DNA from: Alkalibacterium sp.
GTDB lineage: Bacteria; Bacillota; Bacilli; Lactobacillales; Carnobacteriaceae_A
DNA length: 64,000 nt
Reading direction: 5' to 3'
Assembly: GCA_007692455.1 (NCBI GenBank)
Contig: RECC01000036.1
Coordinates: forward strand, 186,001 to 250,000
Numbering within the stretch: the stretch's first letter is position 1; each line of letters opens with the position of its first letter. This document shows positions 1,625 to 24,783 of the stretch, one piece after another. A model generated the notes under the pieces. It was not told where the DNA came from and did not search any database. It saw only the letters and a program-made list of their open reading frames with translations. Position numbers and translations under genes: made by a program.

Positions 1625-1669
1625 GAAACCCCCTTAGTTCCGGCAACCGGCGCTAAGGGGGTTTCAGTT
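1625..1669. terminator. Bidirectional terminator between pnp and birA
   Basis: A perfect 13-bp stem (1625-1637 with 1653-1665) encloses a loop that itself contains CCGG/CCGG. A T-rich run follows on the + strand. The two flanking genes converge on it (pnp ends 1614, birA ends 1675), so it probably stops both transcripts. Confidence 0.9.
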
Positions 1670-1674
1670 TTTGT

Positions 1675-2655
1675 TTAAATATATGAGCTTAGTCCTCGTA
1701 TAGAAAAATCAAGGGTTCTCAAAGGAGTCAAGCTTTCATCATCAGTGTATTGCACAATAAGTTCGCCCAAAGAATTGATGTCTCTGACATGAGCCAGCCT
1801 GGCGCTTTCACCAGTTCGGACAATAATTTCCTTCCCAATCAAAACCGACGCTTTCTTGCATAAAGTGATAAAGTCTGAACTGTCATTAGTCAGTTGCCAC
1901 TCTCTGTAAAACACTTCAAAAGACCGGATAAACTCAGTGACAATCTGGTTCGGATCAATGTGCATACCCGTTTCAATGAGCAAAGAGGTAGCCTTCTCAG
2001 CGAGGCTGCTGCTTATATCGTTTTTGGATAGGGAGGTATTAATACCCACACCAACCACTATGCCTTCTAATTGGCTACCGTTAAAAGAGGTTTCAGTTAA
2101 GATACCTGCTATCTTCTTGTTCCCTACTATGATATCGTTAGGCCATTTTATTTCGGCTGAAACATAAGGCTTTAATGCCTGTACGAGCGCTGCAGCGGTA
2201 AGTTGGGTAAACAAAACTGCCTGTTCACCTGATATTACAGGTTTTAGAATTAATGAGAGCGTTACTGCAGAACCAATGGGCGACTGCCATTCGCGTCCTA
2301 ATCGCCCTTTTCCCTTATACTGATAGTCAGTTAAAAGAACAGTCCGGTCTGAAAACTCAGAAATATCAGTCAGTGCTTTTGAATTAGTTGACGGAATACG
2401 GGGGAAAAACAAGGAAGAATAGGGTAGCCTCCATTCTGAGAGCAGCGATTGTATTTTAGACTGACTAATCATAGGAACGGTTAATGTAACAGTATTATTA
2501 GAAAAGTTCAGAGGATAGTGCAAGTCGACCAGTTCCTGAAGAAGCCCAATGATTTCTCCTTTGGAAAGTAAGAGTTTTTCTGCATAATAATCGATTGAGT
2601 GTTGGTGTGGATAATTCATTTTAATCAGTTCGAATAGTTTGTTTTGAGATGACAT
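1675..2655 (-). CDS. birA: Biotin--[acetyl-CoA carboxylase] ligase / biotin repressor
   Basis: BirA activates biotin to biotinyl-AMP and attaches it to the biotin carboxyl carrier protein; long forms also bind DNA as a repressor. The 326-aa protein has an N-terminal helix-turn-helix-like region (residues 1-65), then the catalytic core with the biotin-binding KGRLGREWQSP motif, KWPNDI and the KIAGIL motif, and a small C-terminal SH3-like domain. The long form suggests it keeps the regulatory domain. I chose the ATG at 2655 because GGAGG lies five bases before it; an in-frame TTG 12 bases upstream would overlap that ribosome binding site. It is transcribed divergently from rnjB through a shared symmetric promoter. 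Confidence 0.95.
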   Translation of the reverse strand: MSSQNKLFELIKMNYPHQHSIDYYAEKLLLSKGEIIGLLQELVDLHYPLNFSNNTVTLTVPMISQSKIQSLLSEWRLPYSSLFFPRIPSTNSKALTDISEFSDRTVLLTDYQYKGKGRLGREWQSPIGSAVTLSLILKPVISGEQAVLFTQLTAAALVQALKPYVSAEIKWPNDIIVGNKKIAGILTETSFNGSQLEGIVVGVGINTSLSKNDISSSLAEKATSLLIETGMHIDPNQIVTEFIRSFEVFYREWQLTNDSSDFITLCKKASVLIGKEIIVRTGESARLAHVRDINSLGELIVQYTDDESLTPLRTLDFSIRGLSSYI

Positions 2656-13844: not shown

Positions 13845-13874
13845 TTGACACTAATTTTGAGAGTATGCTATTAT
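13845..13874 (+). promoter_or_regulatory. Promoter of the V-ATPase operon
   Basis: Consensus TTGACA (13845-13850), 18 bases, TATTAT (13869-13874). A start near 13881 would give a leader of about 115 bases before ntpF, long enough for the structured element described next. Confidence 0.8.
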
Positions 13875-13904
13875 AAATCATGTTAGTATATCAATTATAG
13901 AAAT

Positions 13905-13976
13905 ACGGTTGGGCGTGAGCTTTCAAGGATGATTTCTTCTAGGGCGAGAAGAAAGCTTGTTAGCTGCGCCTTTTTT
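13905..13976 (+). ncRNA. Candidate riboswitch or attenuator in the V-ATPase leader
   Basis: The leader can form mutually exclusive pairs. GGCG at 13912-13915 and GGCG at 13943-13946 both complement CGCC (13967-13970), which is followed by six T. AGCTTTC (13918-13924) pairs with GAAAGCT (13951-13957), competing with TTTCTTCT/AGAAGAAA (13933-13940 with 13947-13954) and with a small AGCT/AGCT stem (13954-13965). So a terminator and an alternative fold exclude each other. Na+ riboswitches (DUF1646 motif) are reported before Na+ V-ATPase operons; I cannot check the consensus, so the class is inference. Confidence 0.55.
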
Positions 13977-13994
13977 GTTGAAAGGGGGAGAAAA

Positions 13995-14321
13995 ATGAAT
14001 CGTGAAGCTATCAATTATGTTAAAGAAGCTGAAGCACGGGTCGAAGAATTACGGGAAAATACCAACAGACAAATAAAAGAAATAAAGGAAGACAAAGACG
14101 CTCAGATAGAAAAGGTTAAAGAACAGACAGATCAGCAGCTTTCCTCTTATCAGAAAGAACAGGATGAAGAGGTGAACCAATTGCTTTCAGAAGACGAAAA
14201 AACATTCGAGAAGCAGGTTGAATCTGAGGTTCAACGGTTTAATGAATCCTTTGAATCGAAGAAAGAAGTTTTAGCCAATCGAGTAGCAGAGGAGGTATTG
14301 CGTCGATATGGCCATAGCTAA
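13995..14321 (+). CDS. ntpF: V-type ATPase subunit F/G-H (peripheral stalk)
   Basis: A 108-aa, highly charged, coiled-coil protein. With NtpE it forms the peripheral stalk that holds the catalytic head against the rotating ring. The sequence is almost entirely helix-forming Glu, Lys, Gln and Arg with few hydrophobics, and ends in VAEEVLRRYG. I chose ATG 13995 after GGGGGAG; an in-frame upstream ATG at 13929 lies inside the leader structure. It overlaps ntpI by 14 bases and is the first gene of a nine-gene operon in the Enterococcus hirae ntp order. The family is recognised by position and composition as much as by sequence. Confidence 0.88.
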   Translation: MNREAINYVKEAEARVEELRENTNRQIKEIKEDKDAQIEKVKEQTDQQLSSYQKEQDEEVNQLLSEDEKTFEKQVESEVQRFNESFESKKEVLANRVAEEVLRRYGHS

Positions 14322-16263
14322 AATGAAAAAGCTTACTTTATTATCAGAACACCATAATAAAGAGAGCATTTTAAAAAGTGTTCAGGAAATGCAGAGTCTT
14401 GAAATTATTCCTTTAAAAGGAAAGCTTGAAGACGAACTATTTGAAGAATTCGACATGTCTGATGCAGAAACTTCACAGTCGGACAGGCAAGCCACTCTTC
14501 AGGATATAGAGTACTCTCACAACTTTCTGAAAAATTATGTGGAACGGCCGGGACTGATTGAAAGGCTCAAGGCGAAAAGGGAAATCTTTACTTTAGAAGC
14601 TTTGGAAACCCATGTTGAAGGAGCGGAAATTGAAGAACTCCTGGAAAAAGTATCAGCTAAAGAAAAACAGCTGAACAAGATGGATGAACAGCTGAAAGAA
14701 TTAAACCAGGAAGAGTCATTCTTAAGAAAATGGCGCGGGCTGAGCTTTCACCCTGAAGAAGCTGACTCATTCAGGCTGATGCACGTTTCAGTTGGTTCGG
14801 TTGACAAAGAACATGCGGCACCTCTGGTAGAAAATTTCAAAGAAAATGGCAAGATATATTTTGATGAAATTTTTCGCCGAAGTGATGAAATTGCGTATCT
14901 GATTATCCTTCCTAAAGAAGAAAAACACAACTTCAATCAACTGACTGGCCAATATAGTTTTAGAGAATTGGATTATCCGTTTGATGTTCTACCTGAAGAT
15001 GCACTGTACAAGAATCTGAATGCTCAAAAAGAGCTGAAAGAAGAGAAACAGGCTGTAATCAAGGATTTGAAAAAATGGAAGACAGAATACCGCAACCTTG
15101 AACTGGCAGAGGAGTACTATTATAATCTGTCAGCACGAGAAACAGCACACGACTTGCTGGTTGACAGTGCTCACCTTTTCTTATTGACTGGCTGGGTTGA
15201 AGAAGAAAAAGTCTCTAACTTAAAAGCTAATATTAATCAGTCGGTAGGGGAAGATGCCGTAGCGATTTTAACGGATGACATATTGATGAAGGAGTACGAA
15301 GAAGTACCGGTCGTACTTAAAAACAATAAACTGGTCAAGCCTTTTGAAATGATTACGGAAATGTTCAGTTTCCCTAAATACAATGGTGCGGATCCAACAC
15401 CGCTGATGATGCCGTTCTTCATGATTTTCTTCGGTATGATGAGTGCTGATCTGGGATACGGGCTATTACTGTTCGGCGTCACACTCTTTGCATTGAAATC
15501 ATTTAATATTGAAGGTTCTGCTGGAAACTTCATTAAGTTTCTTCATACTTTATCATATCCTACAATGGCATTCGGACTGTTTTTCGGTAGCTTTTTCGGG
15601 ATTGAGCTGCCTATTCAGGTGTTCTCACTACAGGATGATGTCCTTGAAATAATGGCTTTATCCGTTATTCTCGGATTAATTCAGCTGCTGTATGGTTTAG
15701 TACTGAATGGACTGCTTAAGAGTCGTCAAGGCCAGAGAGCTTCGTCCTATGTGGATGGTTATGCATGGTTCCTCATGCTGATAGGCTTTATTCTGTGGAC
15801 AGGTGGAAGTCTCGTCCTGGAAATGCCTCTTCTGTCTCAAATAGGAATTGGCTTAGTTGCTCTAAATGCGTTAGGTATTTTAGTCGTTTCTGCTGTATCC
15901 AGCTCAAACAAAGCTTTAGGTTTGGGACTGGGAGCATATAATCTTTATGGAATTTCCGGTTATGTCGGAGATATTGTCAGTTATACTCGATTGATGGCTT
16001 TAGGTGTAGCGAGTGCGAATATTGCCATGGCGTTTAATATGATTATCGGTTTCCTGCCTCCGATTGCACGTTTTTCGGTTGGTATACTTATAATCATCGC
16101 CCTGCACACATTAAACATCGCACTGACATTCCTGAGTGCTTACGTGCACACATCTCGACTGCAGTATGTTGAATTCTTCGGTAAATTTTACGAAGGTGGA
16201 GGAAAACCTCTGACGCCACTCAAGGCACTTGAAAAGCATGTGTGGATGGAAGACAATAATTAA
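14308..16263 (+). CDS. ntpI: V-type ATPase subunit I (a subunit, membrane stator)
   Basis: Subunit I carries the ion half-channels beside the rotating K ring. The 651-aa protein has a long soluble, coiled-coil N-terminal half (residues 1-350) that binds the stalks, then about seven or eight membrane segments. The essential arginine is visible in SYTRLMALG (R561). It starts 14 bases inside ntpF; GGAGGT lies 11 bases before ATG 14308, rather far, and ATG 14323 is a possible alternative start. The C terminus (HTSRLQYVEFFGKFYEGGGKPLTPL) is typical of the family. Confidence 0.95.
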   Translation: MAIAKMKKLTLLSEHHNKESILKSVQEMQSLEIIPLKGKLEDELFEEFDMSDAETSQSDRQATLQDIEYSHNFLKNYVERPGLIERLKAKREIFTLEALETHVEGAEIEELLEKVSAKEKQLNKMDEQLKELNQEESFLRKWRGLSFHPEEADSFRLMHVSVGSVDKEHAAPLVENFKENGKIYFDEIFRRSDEIAYLIILPKEEKHNFNQLTGQYSFRELDYPFDVLPEDALYKNLNAQKELKEEKQAVIKDLKKWKTEYRNLELAEEYYYNLSARETAHDLLVDSAHLFLLTGWVEEEKVSNLKANINQSVGEDAVAILTDDILMKEYEEVPVVLKNNKLVKPFEMITEMFSFPKYNGADPTPLMMPFFMIFFGMMSADLGYGLLLFGVTLFALKSFNIEGSAGNFIKFLHTLSYPTMAFGLFFGSFFGIELPIQVFSLQDDVLEIMALSVILGLIQLLYGLVLNGLLKSRQGQRASSYVDGYAWFLMLIGFILWTGGSLVLEMPLLSQIGIGLVALNALGILVVSAVSSSNKALGLGLGAYNLYGISGYVGDIVSYTRLMALGVASANIAMAFNMIIGFLPPIARFSVGILIIIALHTLNIALTFLSAYVHTSRLQYVEFFGKFYEGGGKPLTPLKALEKHVWMEDNN

Positions 16264-16305: not shown

Positions 16306-16782
16306 ATGAGTAACTTTGAACTGTTTTTTGGAGATAATTTAGGATTTGTTTTTGGAGCAATTGGTGTAGCACTGGCTGTTATTTTATCAGGTATCGGATC
16401 GTCAAGAGGTGTGGGTTCAGCAGGTGAAGCTGCGGCTGCCTTAACAAAAGAGCAACCGGAAAAGTTCGGTCTTGCACTGGTTCTTCAGATGCTTCCGGCT
16501 ACACAGGGACTGTACGGTTTCGTTATCGGTCTGCTTATTATTATTAACTTGACAACAACTTTGGATGTTTCAACAGGATGGTACTACTTGATGGTTGGTT
16601 TACCAGTTGGATTCACCGGTCTGACATCAGGTACATTGCAGGGCCGTGTATCAGTTGCAGCTATGCAGATTTTAGCTCAGAAACCAGAACATACAACAAA
16701 AGGGATTATTTTCTCAGCTATGGTTGAAACGTACGCTATCTTAGGTTTCGTTATTTCCTTGATGATGATTATCTTTATGTAA
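16306..16782 (+). CDS. ntpK: V-type ATPase subunit K (rotor ring), Na+-binding type
   Basis: Subunit K forms the membrane rotor ring that carries the ion. The 158-aa protein has four membrane helices made of two duplicated hairpins (residues 12-80 and 92-157). The residues that bind Na+ in E. hirae NtpK (L61, T64, Q65, Q110, E139) all align, with an offset of two, to L63, T66, Q67, Q112 and E141 here, in LPATQGLYG, LQGRVS and MVETYAILGF. This argues for Na+ rather than H+ transport. AATGGAGG precedes the ATG. A long hairpin lies between ntpK and ntpE and may set the supply of K against the other subunits. Confidence 0.96.
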   Translation: MSNFELFFGDNLGFVFGAIGVALAVILSGIGSSRGVGSAGEAAAALTKEQPEKFGLALVLQMLPATQGLYGFVIGLLIIINLTTTLDVSTGWYYLMVGLPVGFTGLTSGTLQGRVSVAAMQILAQKPEHTTKGIIFSAMVETYAILGFVISLMMIIFM

Positions 16783-16792
16783 TTAATGATTG

Positions 16793-16865
16793 AAAGGAAT
16801 TTAGCTAACATGTATAGACTGTTTGTCTTTAATTACATCAGTTGAATTCCTTTGTTTCATTTTTT
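16793..16865 (+). other. Long intercistronic hairpin between ntpK and ntpE
   Basis: AAAGGAATTTAGCT (16793-16806) pairs with AGTTGAATTCCTTT (16840-16853), 14 bp with two G-U pairs, and inner short stems (ATGTA/TACAT, AGAC/GTCT) extend it. Six T follow at 16860-16865, six bases after the stem. It is likely a partial terminator or mRNA-stabilising hairpin within the operon. Confidence 0.7.
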
Positions 16866-16889
16866 AACACTCTGAACAGGAGGGAAACC

Positions 16890-17468
16890 ATGGCGGACTT
16901 GAAACTATTAACTGAACGGGTAGTCGAAAAAGAAAAAGCGGCTATGCGAGAAGAAATTGAAAAAACAAAAAAACAAGCTGAAGACGAACTTCAGGCTTTT
17001 GAAGCGGAAGAGGTACAGAAGCGTCTCCGTTTAAAAGAAGAAATTAAAAGTAAATCTGACCAGCGCTATACCATTAAGAAAAACACGCTGGAGATAAAAA
17101 GAAGAAATGAAGTGCTTGCCGCAAAGCAGAGAATATTACATGCTGTCTTTGAAGAAGCAAACAGCAAACTCGATAATTTGAATGAAGCGGACTTTAAGGC
17201 CTTTACACTTGGTGTATTGAATCAGTTTGACGAGTCCAGTGCAGTGACTATGAAGTTAGGCGCTAAATCTACAGCTGCATTTGATAAAAGTTGGGTAAAC
17301 GCCTTATCCGACAAGAAGCTGACTGTTCGAATTTCTGAAGAAACAGTAGCTAATGAGTCAGGCTTTGTTATTGAAAAAGATGGGATTGATTATAACTTCT
17401 TGTTCAGTAACTTAGTTGATGATGCAAGAATGGATATTTTACCGGAAATTTCAAAAGAATTATTTTAG
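16890..17468 (+). CDS. ntpE: V-type ATPase subunit E (peripheral stalk)
   Basis: NtpE pairs with NtpF in the peripheral stalk. The 192-aa protein has a charged coiled-coil N-terminal half (residues 1-90) and a globular C-terminal half ending in DARMDILPEISKELF, as in the family. I chose ATG 16890 behind AGGAGGG; an in-frame ATG at 16842 lies within the T-rich region after the upstream hairpin. The 107-base gap before it is by far the longest in the operon and contains the ntpK-ntpE hairpin. Confidence 0.92.
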   Translation: MADLKLLTERVVEKEKAAMREEIEKTKKQAEDELQAFEAEEVQKRLRLKEEIKSKSDQRYTIKKNTLEIKRRNEVLAAKQRILHAVFEEANSKLDNLNEADFKAFTLGVLNQFDESSAVTMKLGAKSTAAFDKSWVNALSDKKLTVRISEETVANESGFVIEKDGIDYNFLFSNLVDDARMDILPEISKELF

Positions 17469-17482
17469 GGAGGAGAATGATA

Positions 17483-18487
17483 ATGAAAGATGCCGTATAT
17501 GGATCAAGTAATGTTCTCATACGTATTTACGAGAATGATCTCCTCACTCGAGCTCAATTTGAAAGAATGCTTTCTGCTGCCACTTTTGATGAGGCAGTAA
17601 ATGTTCTTCGGGAAACGCCTTACCGTAATGATGTTGACAGAATCAAAGAAGATAAAGATTACGACTCTATGTTTATGCATGAATTGAATCAGACTTTTGA
17701 AGAATTATTTAAAATCGTTCCTAACAAAGAGCTGATTGAACTGACAGGATTGAGATACGCTTACCATAATTTAAAGGTGCTATTTAAAGAAGAATTTACT
17801 GAGCAGGAACTTGACCACTTGCTGATACCAATTGGCAGATACCCTATCTCTGAACTCCGACAGGCGGTTCGGACAGGGGAGTCGGAAGAACTGTCGGAAG
17901 AATACATGAAATCCATTAATGAAGTGCTTGAGGATTACAACCAGTACCAGAATGTTCAGGCAGTGGATATCATTCTTGACAGACGTTATTTCACGCATCT
18001 GAGGCTGTTGGCTGATCAGACGGGGGAAGACGATATTCCTGAACTGGTTGAAACCTTTATTGATTATAACAACTTATCTACACTGATTCGTGGGATGAAG
18101 CAAGGGAAGACAAGAAACTTCCTGTATACAGTGCTCTCTAGTTCTGGTTCTATTCCAAAGAGTGACTTGCTGGAAATAGCAGAAAACGGACACCAGTATG
18201 CTTTGAATTATTTTAGAACGACAGATTACCGTAAGCTTTTGGAACAAGCATTCGATAAAGAGTCAGGAGAATTTTCTACAGTCAAAGTTGACTTCGTAAC
18301 GGATAATGCCTATATGGAAAAGATGCGCGATGCTCATCTGAAATCTTTTGGCCCCATGCCGGTCCTGGCATATATTTATGCTAAGGAAATTGAAGTGAAA
18401 AATCTGCGCCTTATCTTGTCTGGAAAAGAAAACGGTGTGTCTCAGGAAGCTATAAGAGAAAGGATGCGATTGAACTATGCCAAGTAA
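17483..18487 (+). CDS. ntpC: V-type ATPase subunit C (d subunit, rotor cap)
   Basis: Subunit C (also called d) couples the central shaft to the K ring. The 334-aa protein matches in length and contains the family segments LTGLRYAYHNLKVLFKEEF, RRYFTHLRLLAD, FIDYNNLSTLIRGMKQGK and the C-terminal YIYAKEIEVKNLRLILSGKENG. I chose ATG 17483, seven bases after GGGAGGAG; the ATG at 17477 is too close to the ribosome binding site. It overlaps ntpG by 11 bases, which suggests coupled translation. Confidence 0.93.
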   Translation: MKDAVYGSSNVLIRIYENDLLTRAQFERMLSAATFDEAVNVLRETPYRNDVDRIKEDKDYDSMFMHELNQTFEELFKIVPNKELIELTGLRYAYHNLKVLFKEEFTEQELDHLLIPIGRYPISELRQAVRTGESEELSEEYMKSINEVLEDYNQYQNVQAVDIILDRRYFTHLRLLADQTGEDDIPELVETFIDYNNLSTLIRGMKQGKTRNFLYTVLSSSGSIPKSDLLEIAENGHQYALNYFRTTDYRKLLEQAFDKESGEFSTVKVDFVTDNAYMEKMRDAHLKSFGPMPVLAYIYAKEIEVKNLRLILSGKENGVSQEAIRERMRLNYAK

Positions 18488-18788
18488 AATAGGAGTTGTA
18501 GGCGACAAAGACTCTGTTCTTGCTTTTAAAATGATAGGTTTCTCAGTATTCTTTGCATCCGAAGCTAAAGAGACGCGACGTATTATCGACAACCTAGCTG
18601 ACAAGAATTACGGAGTAATTTATCTGACAGAACAGCTGGCAGAGATGATTCCAGAAACAATTAAGCGTTACGACGCTAAAATGAAACCTGCCATCATTTT
18701 GATCCCTAATCATGCAGGGTCACGCGGAATAGGTAAAAAGCGCGTGCAAGAAAATGTCGAGAAAGCTGTGGGTCAAAATATTTTATAG
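18477..18788 (+). CDS. ntpG: V-type ATPase subunit F (NtpG)
   Basis: A 103-aa soluble subunit that joins subunit D in the central rotor shaft. It starts with the recognisable KIGVVGDKDSVLAFKMIGF and has the middle segment YGVIYLTEQLAEMIPETI and PAIILIPN. It starts within the end of ntpC (11-base overlap) and is followed by the TTG-starting ntpA after 12 bases. Naming differs between systems: NtpG of E. hirae corresponds to subunit F elsewhere. Confidence 0.92.
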   Translation: MPSKIGVVGDKDSVLAFKMIGFSVFFASEAKETRRIIDNLADKNYGVIYLTEQLAEMIPETIKRYDAKMKPAIILIPNHAGSRGIGKKRVQENVEKAVGQNIL

Positions 18789-18800
18789 GAGGGTACGAAT

Positions 18801-20585
18801 TTGAGTAAAGGAACAATTGTGAGTGTTTCCGGACCACTGGTTACTGCAAGTGGCATGGAATCGGCTAACATACAAGATATCTGCCGTGTCGGACGTTTAG
18901 GTTTGATCGGTGAAATAATTGAGATGAGAGATGATGTAGCATCAATTCAGGTATATGAAGAAACATCGATGGTCGGCCCTGGAGAAGATGTAGAAACAAC
19001 CGGAGAAGCACTATCTGTTGAGCTGGCACCTGGTATGATTTCACAGATGTTTGATGGCATCCAGAGACCTTTGGATGAATTTATGGAAATGACCAACAGC
19101 AACTTCCTTGAAAGAGGTATGACGATTGCACCTTTAAATCGTGATAAGAAATGGGAGTTCACAGCAGAAGTGGAAGCCGGAACTGAAGTAAGCGCTGGAG
19201 ATATAGTTGGAACTGTTCAGGAAACGAATGTTATCGAACACCGCATTATGGTCCCATTCGGAATGAAAGGTAAAATAAAGTCCATTTCCAATGGAACCTT
19301 TACTATTGAAGAGCCGTTATATGTTCTGGAAACAGAGAATGGCGATAAAGAACTAACTATGATGCAAAAATGGCCTGTTCGTCGTGGACGTCCGATTAAG
19401 ACTAAACTGAACCCTGAAGAACCACTAATCACTGGTCAACGTGTTATTGATACGCTATTTCCAGTAGCTAAAGGTGGAGCAGCTGCAGTACCCGGACCAT
19501 TTGGAGCGGGCAAAACAGTTGTTCAGCACCAAATAGCAAAATGGGCTGATGTTGATTTAGTTGTTTACGTTGGTTGTGGAGAACGCGGAAATGAAATGAC
19601 GGATGTAATTAACGAGTTCCCTGAACTGATTGACCCGAATACCGGCGAATCAATCATGGCGAGAACAATTTTAATTGCAAACACATCCAACATGCCTGTT
19701 GCGGCTCGTGAAGCCTCAATCTATACAGGTATTACCATTGCAGAGTACTTCAGAGATATGGGCTATTCAGTAGCCATTATGGCTGATTCAACTTCAAGAT
19801 GGGCGGAAGCTCTTCGTGAAATGTCCGGCCGTTTAGAAGAAATGCCGGGGGATGAAGGGTATCCTGCTTACCTAGGTTCACGTTTAGCGGAATACTATGA
19901 ACGTGCAGGTAAAGTTGTTACTCTTGGTTCGACTGAACGTTTAGGAAGCATTACGGCGATTGGAGCGGTATCCCCTCCAGGAGGAGATACATCTGAGCCG
20001 GTTACGCAAAACACACTGCGCGTAGCTAAAGTATTCTGGGGACTGGACAGTTCACTGGCTCAGCGACGTCACTTCCCATCGATCAACTGGTTGAATTCCT
20101 ATTCACTATACAGCAATGACATGAACAAATATGTTGGTAAAAAGCTGGATGTTGACTGGGATGGTATGGTTACCCATGCTAAAGCTCTCCTACAGGACGA
20201 ATCAGAACTGCAGGAAATTGTGCGTCTGGTCGGTGTGGAATCCCTATCCGAAAAAGACCGCTTGAAGCTTGTTGTTGCTCGTATGCTGAGAGAAGATTAT
20301 CTTCAGCAGAATGCCTTCGATGATGTGGATACCTATACTTCACGAAACAAACAATATGAAATGATGCAGACGATATTGTATTTTGAAGAACAAAGTATCA
20401 GAGCGATGGATCTTGGTTCTTACTATGATGAAATCATTGAAGGAACTGAAGATATCAGAGAGCGTATTGGACGCATGAAGTATATCAGCGAAGAAGAACT
20501 GGTTAAAATTCAGGAAATCCGAACTAAAACGAAGAGTGACATCCAAACTGTACTTGAGAAAGGTGGTGTAGAATCAGATGCTTAA
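18801..20585 (+). CDS. ntpA: V-type ATPase catalytic subunit A
   Basis: The catalytic ATP-hydrolysing subunit of the A3B3 head. The 594-aa protein has the P-loop GPFGAGKT (residues 232-239), the catalytic region [10 protein letters not shown], and [19 protein letters not shown] and [24 protein letters not shown]. Its extra non-homologous region after residue 110, absent from F-type beta subunits, identifies it as V/A type. The start is TTG 18801 after TAGGAGGG. It overlaps ntpB by eight bases, which fits the equal amounts of A and B needed. Confidence 0.97.
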
Positions 20586-21954
20586 GGAATATAAAACAGT
20601 AACAGAAGTTGTAGGTCCGCTGATGACCGTTGAAGGTGTTGAAGGTGTTAAATTCGATGAACTGGTTGATATCGAAATGCAGACCGGTGAACGCAGAAGA
20701 GGTCAGGTCCTGGAAATTAATGGCGACAAAGCTGTTGTTCAGTTATTTGAAGGCTCTACCGGTATTAACCTTCAGGACACGAAAGTTCGTTTCCTTGGGA
20801 AACCTTTATCGTTAGATGTTTCTGAAGATATGATTGGTCGTACATTTGATGGTATGGGCCGTGTAAACGACGGTGGACCAAATCTAATTCCGGAAAAAAG
20901 TCTGGATATTAATGGTATGGCCATCAACCCCATCTCACGAGACTATCCCGATGAATTTATTCAGACAGGTATCTCAACAATTGACCACTTAAATACCTTG
21001 GTTCGTGGACAAAAATTACCAGTATTTTCTGGTTCTGGACTGCCTCACAAAGAATTGGCAGCTCAGATAGCCCGTCAAGCCAGTGTTACCAATGCAGATG
21101 AGAAGTTTGCTGTAGTATTCGCTGCCATCGGAATTACATTTGAAGAAGCCGAGTATTTTATGAATGACTTTAAAGAAACTGGCGCGATTGACCGTTCAGT
21201 AGTATTCATTAACTTAGCGGATGATCCGGCTATTGAACGAATCGCTACGCCAAGAATGGCCTTGACAGCTGCTGAATACCTGGCTTTTGAAAAGGATATG
21301 CATGTACTGGTTATTATGACAGACATGACAAACTATGCTGAAGCCCTGCGTGAAATATCGGCTGCCAGACGTGAAGTTCCTGGACGACGTGGGTACCCGG
21401 GTTACTTGTATACAAACCTGGCAACCTTATACGAGCGTGCCGGACGTCTTGAAGGAACGAATGGATCGGTTACTCAGATTCCAATTCTAACTATGCCTGA
21501 AGACGATATTACGCATCCAATTCCCGATTTGACCGGATACATTACTGAGGGACAGATTATTCTGTCAAGAGAACTCTATAACCAGGGATATCAGCCTCCA
21601 ATAGATGTACTGCCTTCCTTGTCACGATTAAAAGATAAAGGAACTGGCGAAGGAAAAACGAGAGAAGATCACGCACCTACCATGAACCAGATTTTCTCAG
21701 CCTATGCACAGGGTAAAGAAGCGAAGGAATTATCTGCTGTTCTTGGTGAAGCTGCACTTTCAGATGCGGATAGAAGTTACGTTGAATTCACGAATAAGTT
21801 TGAGAAAGAGTATGTCAACCAGGGGAATTATACTAAGCGAACCATTCAGGAAACACTTGATTTAGGGTGGGACCTGCTGAAAGTATTGCCTCGTGGTGAA
21901 CTGAAACGTATTAAAGATGATATGCTTGACAAATACATGCCAAAGGGAGAGTGA
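20578..21954 (+). CDS. ntpB: V-type ATPase non-catalytic subunit B
   Basis: Subunit B alternates with A in the head and contributes the arginine finger. The 458-aa protein lacks a true P-loop; the matching place reads [18 protein letters not shown]. Other family marks are [17 protein letters not shown]-type sequence, [43 protein letters not shown], and [17 protein letters not shown]. The ATG overlaps the ntpA stop region, suggesting coupled translation. The stop is five bases before ntpD. Confidence 0.97.
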
Positions 21955-21959
21955 GGTAA

Positions 21960-22592
21960 ATGGCCAAATTAGATGTCAACCCCACTCGTATGGAACTGGC
22001 GAAACTCAAGAAAAGAATGAATCTCGCCTCCAGAGGGCACAAATTATTGAAAGACAAGCAGGATGAGCTGATGCGTCAGTTCATATTGCTGATTAGAAAA
22101 AACAATGAACTGAGAATTGAAGTTGAAGAAAAACTTGAAAAAGCCATGCAGTCATTCGCTATGGCCAAATCTCTGTTACATGAAAACTATATAGAAGAAC
22201 TGATGGCTGTTCCTAGCCGAAGCGTGTCTTTAAACATTGATCGCAAGAACATCATGAGTGTTCGTGTCCCTCAGATGAACTTTCATTATGAGGACGGACA
22301 GGGCGGTTCAAGTGACATCAGTTATGGGTATTTAAACTCAAATGGCGAACTGGACTTGACATTTGACTATCTGGTTGATGTCATGCCGGCTATGCTTGAA
22401 CTGGCAGAAATCGAGAAGACATGTCAGTTGATGGCCAATGAAATTGAAAAGACTAGACGAAGAGTAAACGCGCTTGAATATATGACGATTCCTCAATTGG
22501 AAGAAACGATTTACTTTATTCAGATGAAGCTGGATGAAAGTGAACGTTCAGCCATTACTCGTCTGATGAAAGTCAAGGATATGGGTCATTAA
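21960..22592 (+). CDS. ntpD: V-type ATPase subunit D (central shaft)
   Basis: Subunit D is the rotating coiled-coil shaft inside the A3B3 head. The 210-aa protein begins with the family pattern [34 protein letters not shown] and ends in a second long helix ([41 protein letters not shown]). It is the last gene of the operon and is followed by a terminator. No ntpH or ntpJ (K+ uptake) gene follows, unlike the longer E. hirae operon. Confidence 0.95.

Positions 22593-22712: not shown

Positions 22713-24783
<2,071 letters not shown>

Follow-up and report, generated by a model that had tools for sequence, protein, structure and literature searches.

Organisation of the locus

The window (the whole stretch of 64,000 nucleotides of Alkalibacterium DNA that was analysed) contains an operon for a V-type ATPase, preceded by a predicted promoter and a ribosome binding site:

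13845 to 13874, plus strand: predicted sigma-70 promoter, TTGACA-18-TATTAT, with TG before the −10 element (11/12 by consensus scan)
13980 to 13988, plus strand: ribosome binding site GAAAGGGGG (from the sequence; a purine-rich site is equally placed in the family leaders)
13995 to 14321, plus strand: ntpF, stalk subunit, first gene of the operon (108-residue frame; relatives lie downstream of the aptamer at 20/20 family loci)
14308 to 16263, plus strand: ntpI, V-type ATPase subunit I (NF004427, 2.4e-163, 545 bits, below the curated cut-off of 942)
16306 to 16782, plus strand: ntpK, rotor subunit (over the curated cut-off; E. hirae NtpK 2bl2, E 2.8e-52)
16842 to 22592, plus strand: ntpE, C, G, A, B and D (C, G, A, B and D over the curated cut-off; E with only E 0.00013, below the cut-off)

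After NtpF, the subunits follow in the order I, K, E, C, G, A, B, D. NtpF was named by its position, because NCBIfam gave no match. Its start codon is most likely the ATG at 13995, judging from the sequence and the ribosome binding site upstream; a longer, mechanically called frame from 13929 overlaps the riboswitch described below, and most NtpF relatives in the family begin with a similar, MNREAI-type sequence, preceded by a comparable ribosome site (L012 differs). Directly after the operon lies a gene for a patatin-like phospholipase (22713-24074, plus strand), none of whose matches reaches a curated cut-off.

Among proteins of solved structure, the best match to NtpK is the rotor subunit of the E. 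hirae Na+ V-ATPase (2bl2), in which we take L61, T64, Q65, Q110 and E139 to be the Na+ ligands. In the Alkalibacterium protein these positions are occupied by L63, T66, Q67, Q112 and E141, so that NtpK has all five Na+ ligands, as the initial annotation proposed.

All the elements named in that annotation are present in the sequence between 13845 and 13997. The promoter is among them, promoter-like sites of at least 9/12 being common in shuffled sequences (mean 2.6); transcription would start near 13881. Two copies of GGGCG are found at 13911-13915 and 13942-13946, and a run of six T (13971-13976) comes directly after CGCC (13967-13970). Two inverted repeats, TTTCTTCT/AGAAGAAA (13933-13940/13947-13954) and AGCTTTC/GAAAGCT (13918-13924/13951-13957), are exact; both had been read as competing stems. 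The first is not a competitor: it is helix P2 of the aptamer and is retained in both predicted states. The second is probably incidental and was dropped as a competing stem, because GAAAGCT is found in only 3 of the 20 family leaders (L001, L014 and L015). Base pairing between P1 and the ribosome site (CUUUCAA/UUGAAAG) was also rejected; it is missing in the Marinilactibacillus leaders that were inspected.

A Na+-I aptamer in the leader

In an Rfam 15 scan of the whole window, to which the E value given below refers, two matches exceeded the gathering score: a TPP riboswitch (RF00059, 4534-4640, plus strand, 69.7 bits) and RF03071 in the leader. Matches to Enterococcus-1 RNA (17.1 bits, gathering score 71.4) and HOTAIR_3 (11.8 bits, gathering score 80) were discarded because they fall far short of these thresholds. 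The RF03071 match is the only one in its own genome (2,048,920 bases, 89.5% complete), and it bears out the earlier suggestion of a candidate Na+ riboswitch:

13907 to 13953, plus strand: Na+-I riboswitch aptamer (RF03071, DUF1646 motif; 45.7 bits against a gathering score of 40.5, E 2.9e-6)
13909 to 13926, plus strand: helix P1, UUG 13909-13911 with CAA 13924-13926 and a UU bulge (Rfam alignment)
13912 to 13914 with 13919 to 13921, plus strand: inner P1, GGC with GCU, closed by a GUGA loop at 13915-13918 (Rfam alignment)
13933 to 13954, plus strand: helix P2, with loop AGGGCG at 13941-13946

In the alignment to the RF03071 consensus, P1 is short, with its GUGA loop, and the conserved base of P1 (GGUUGGGC ... 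GCUUUCAAG) is retained. Loop 2 reads AGGGCG where the consensus has gGGGUG; the GGG and the last G are retained, while U is replaced by C and G by A. Among 100 leaders, 98 have a recognisable loop motif; counted without regard to kinship, their first and fifth bases are G..U in 50, U..U in 19, A..U in 14, A..C in 13 and G..C in 2, a C at the fifth position mostly accompanying an A at the first. The first and fifth bases may pair around the GGG, in which case the G..U and A..C wobbles can share a shape.

The loop-2 substitution could point to a change of ligand to another ion (Li+, K+ or H+), or to an OFF switch, and White et al. (PMC9337991) allow for altered specificity in some members of the class. 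We regard such a change as very improbable: the A..C loop recurs in leaders from four families, and the leader stands before sodium-related genes, a V-ATPase with a Na+-type NtpK. That the leader is a Na+-I riboswitch controlling the Na+ V-ATPase is well supported by the sequence.

White et al. (2022, PMC9337991) established the class, with Na+-selective binding and ON control. They also placed a Na+-I riboswitch upstream of V-type ATPase genes in various enterococci and clostridia, and cited earlier work on the regulation of one such ATPase by Na+. The Alkalibacterium leader belongs to the same class and precedes the same kind of operon; because the association with V-ATPases is already stated in that paper, we describe it as a new member of the class. 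Neither Alkalibacterium nor Marinilactibacillus is named in the main text of PMC9337991. Going by titles and the beginnings of abstracts, no second paper on the Na+-I class before V-ATPase genes was found in the open-licence literature. PMC12604602 recounts that the E. hirae ntp operon is induced by Na+ and pH, and a word search of its main text does not find 'riboswitch'; in the passages found by word search in PMC3675131, on an S. pyogenes sRNA and the ntp genes, no Na+ riboswitch is mentioned.

Distribution in the family

RF03071 has one match in each of 20 of the 27 family genomes, all over the cut-off, and all 20 aptamers precede relatives of NtpF and NtpI; together with the NtpK ligand positions, this also backs the class assignment. 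The NtpK relatives in named genomes (n = 16) belong to Alkalibacterium (up to 97% identity), Marinilactibacillus and one Trichococcus MAG. All five Na+ ligands are kept at each of the 18 loci with a tblastn match to NtpK, out of 24 searched; the other six are without a match.

Three operons, at loci L056 (genome G013), L057 (G020) and L035 (Trichococcus), have no RF03071 match though their NtpK has all five ligands, nor is an aptamer visible by eye in their leaders. Thus, the element accompanies the Na+-type operon in the family, though not every such operon. That these three V-ATPase operons manage without it would suit a degenerate or constitutive leader, with the operon controlled elsewhere. 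For the Alkalibacterium leader, this is extremely unlikely: in the alignment of the 20 family leaders (18 distinct rows), the positions of the terminator described below and of P2 pair in 97.7% of cells, and G-C to G-U exchanges are present. Alkalibacterium and its relatives very probably put their Na+ V-ATPase under the control of a Na+ riboswitch, as far as can be read from sequence.

Six family genomes (L058-L063) have a second, divergent V-type ATPase operon, with a B subunit that is 51-54% identical and a c subunit containing AEGIALYG. The c subunit was not found by tblastn with NtpK, and these loci have no RF03071 match. Five of the six genomes also carry the Na+-type operon with its riboswitch; the sixth (G018) is without a match.

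Terminator and predicted folding

A simple terminator scan found no terminator in the leader, probably because it permits loops of 3-8 bases only, while the predicted stem encloses P2:

13911 to 13976, plus strand: predicted terminator, its 5' arm (13911-13916, 13918-13921 and 13924-13927) formed by the P1 strands and loop
13956 to 13959 and 13962 to 13971, plus strand: 3' arm of the terminator, with P2 nested and the T run at 13971-13976 (from folds, swap tests and pair counts)

By itself, the fold of 13895-13982 stands out only modestly (z −1.87, with 13 of 200 shuffles equally good). We folded a series of ligand-free transcripts of increasing length, all beginning near 13881. In those ending at 13953, 13958 and 13962, the lowest-energy fold contains the inner part of P1 (GGGC 13911-13914 with GCUU 13919-13922) and P2; the outer UUG/CAA pairs of P1, with the bulge, are seen only at end 13940. 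At 13966, P1 has already been replaced, and from 13970-13972 onwards the full terminator is present. The transcripts ending at 13970-13976 form one long hairpin, in which GGGCGU/AGCU/CAAG (13911-13927) pairs with CUUG/AGCU/GCGCCU (13956-13971), with P2 inside.

The initial annotation let either GGGCG copy pair with CGCC. The first copy, in P1, is the better supported arm. Use of the second, in the loop of P2, would correspond to a terminator that forms from P2, as is said for the kefB leader of C. acetobutylicum in PMC9337991. The bases at 13942-13946 can indeed pair with CGCC. When the states were forced on 13905-13976, this loop-2 alternative reached only −12.9 kcal/mol, about 12 kcal/mol weaker than the terminator from P1 (−25.0 kcal/mol); the ligand-free aptamer came to −12.2 kcal/mol.

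In the family alignment, 5 of 500 shuffles pair as well as the terminator with P2, and there are just two two-sided changes, of which one lies in P2. With the loop-2 alternative, 95.8% of cells are paired, and 48 of 500 shuffles are as good. As both forms of the terminator pair well, the family by itself does not separate them.

Tests for co-evolution of the tail with P1 and P2

We assembled 91 Lactobacillales leaders (88 non-redundant), the 20 from the family and 71, mostly the top ones by score, from a search of 395 genomes of the order, 156 of which have an RF03071 match. Relatives of NtpF, NtpI or NtpK lie at most 2.5 kb downstream of 57 of the 91, in line with White et al. (PMC9337991). 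In the main test, fixed 40-base tails were swapped between leaders within families. On average, whole P1 pairs with its own tail at −16.35 kcal/mol and with swapped tails at −14.19 kcal/mol, and none of 5000 swaps was as good for the 88 leaders; in the five families with more than four leaders, 4, 0, 0, 0 and 0 of 2000 swaps were as good. For P2, swapped tails were as good in 354 of 5000 cases, and in the same families in 1369, 1271, 1188, 60 and 199 of 2000. The Alkalibacterium family, with 4/2000 for whole P1 and 1369/2000 for P2, thus shows no co-evolution of the tail with P2, which argues further against the loop-2 terminator; in this family, the 5' strand of P1 alone is not significant (191/2000), while whole P1 is.

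With pooled swaps between any leaders, P2 reached 49/5000. We attribute this signal to a base composition common to each family, since it weakens when swaps are confined to families, although that of family f8 stays at 60/2000. In a first version of the swap test, tails ended at the first run of five T, so that some were mis-cut; 7 of the 91 leaders were omitted and 76 non-redundant ones used, and 2053 of 5000 swaps were as good for P2.

In the best duplexes of P1 and tail, position 9 of the aptamer pairs as G-C, A-U, C-G, U-A or G-U, and comparable variety is seen at positions 10-13; the pairs are standard by construction, since they are drawn from the best duplexes of those leaders that reach −11 kcal/mol or below (73 of 85). 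The sequence comparisons support co-evolution of the tail with P1, and not with P2, in Lactobacillales leaders. By prediction and co-evolution, the terminator excludes the aptamer, and the helix lost is P1, not P2.

Which helix is predicted to be taken in different lineages

Leaders were assigned by the 5' end of the terminator abutting a T run; they are related, so the counts are not independent events. In Lactobacillales, the 5' end lies in P1 in 72 of 88 leaders and in P2 in none, with ten terminators wholly downstream and six leaders without one within 60 bases. Of the 12 leaders that belong to other classes of the phylum, ten have it in P2 and two in P1. The loop-2 terminator would thus give the Alkalibacterium leader the arrangement common in those other classes; weighing this against its absence from the Lactobacillales set and the results above, we consider it highly unlikely here.

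The classes of the MFE folds with tails of 40, 50 and 60 bases were, for the 88 Lactobacillales leaders, P1 capture with P2 kept in 83, 81 and 81, P2 capture in 3, 2 and 5, and neither in 2, 5 and 2; for the other classes, P2 capture was obtained in 12/12 at all three lengths. These classes are weak evidence and not our main support, because shuffled tails often give the same result (P1 capture with P2 kept in 945 of 1760 for Lactobacillales, P2 capture in 125 of 240 for the other classes). An earlier way of cutting the tails gave P1 capture in 86 of 88 Lactobacillales leaders and left 5 of the 12 others unassigned, probably because their tails ended at an inner T run, all 12 being assigned to P2 with fixed tails. 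Within the 12, neither P1 nor P2 showed significant co-evolution with the tail (973 and 813 of 5000).

There are probably two Na+-I platforms, divided by lineage: in Lactobacillales the tail takes P1, with P2 nested, and in the other classes it takes P2. If true, the same sensor has been re-wired through a switch in the helix that the aptamer loses. Such a split, if confirmed, would mean that one small aptamer can be coupled to a terminator in either of two ways, and would tell which helix to mutate when members from lactic acid bacteria are tested.

Proposed switching mechanism and relation to known systems

We think it highly probable that the Na+-I riboswitch turns on the Na+ V-ATPase operon at high cell Na+, most likely through a terminator that captures P1 and leaves P2 nested. 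During transcription of the leader by RNA polymerase, P1 and P2 would fold first, and Na+ would hold them together. If the tail (13956-13971) emerges without bound Na+, it would invade P1 and pair with the P1 strands and loop; the resulting long terminator would enclose P2 and end at the six U, stopping transcription at about 13976. With Na+ bound, P1 would resist until the polymerase is past, ntpFIKECGABD would be transcribed, and the pump made from it would then remove Na+. The riboswitch would thus probably let the Na+ pump be made only when cell sodium builds up.

Aptamer and terminator being mutually exclusive, the switch should be ON, because the aptamer can win only before the tail emerges or if Na+ holds it; this speaks against the OFF switch considered above. 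Na+ binding by the leader RNA, the sign of control, the transcription start and the kinetic order are inferred. Capture of P1 with P2 nested is the likely mechanism from the model, and Na+-dependent read-through fits both the tested kefB member and the predicted switching fold.

The HMP-PP riboswitch reportedly also has an aptamer embedded in, and overlapping, its terminator; its class and ligand differ from those of Na+-I. Compared with the kefB Na+-I riboswitch of C. acetobutylicum, as described in PMC9337991, the Alkalibacterium leader is alike in its P1/P2 aptamer and leader position and, in part, in the conserved loop, and both are ON switches with an overlapping terminator, here by prediction. 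They differ in that kefB loses P2 whereas this leader is predicted to lose P1, with P2 nested, and in that the latter has a short P1 with a GUGA loop and the loop 2 sequence AGGGCG. The leader therefore seems to give up the other helix than the best-studied example does, the class and its link to the pump being already known. Capture of P1 was not found described in the available text of PMC9337991; it may already be known in the literature. The same text describes tandems of Na+-I with a c-di-AMP riboswitch.

Other arrangements among the leaders

Four Lactobacillales leaders of family f3 (L068, L074, L087 and L093) keep the aptamer, have no run of five T within 75 bases and have a relative of V-ATPase subunit I downstream. 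In L126, L127, L128 and L131, the sequence right after the Na+-I terminator resembles what we take to be the start of a c-di-AMP riboswitch. L125 (G940:C61:45636-45991; including 1501-1557 and 1645-1702, minus strand) contains a series of three consecutive Na+-I aptamers, all on the same strand; two of them exceed the gathering score, and the third reaches 33.5 bits. Two were folded, each with its own terminator. The gene next downstream of this triple is presumably a diaminopimelate dehydrogenase.
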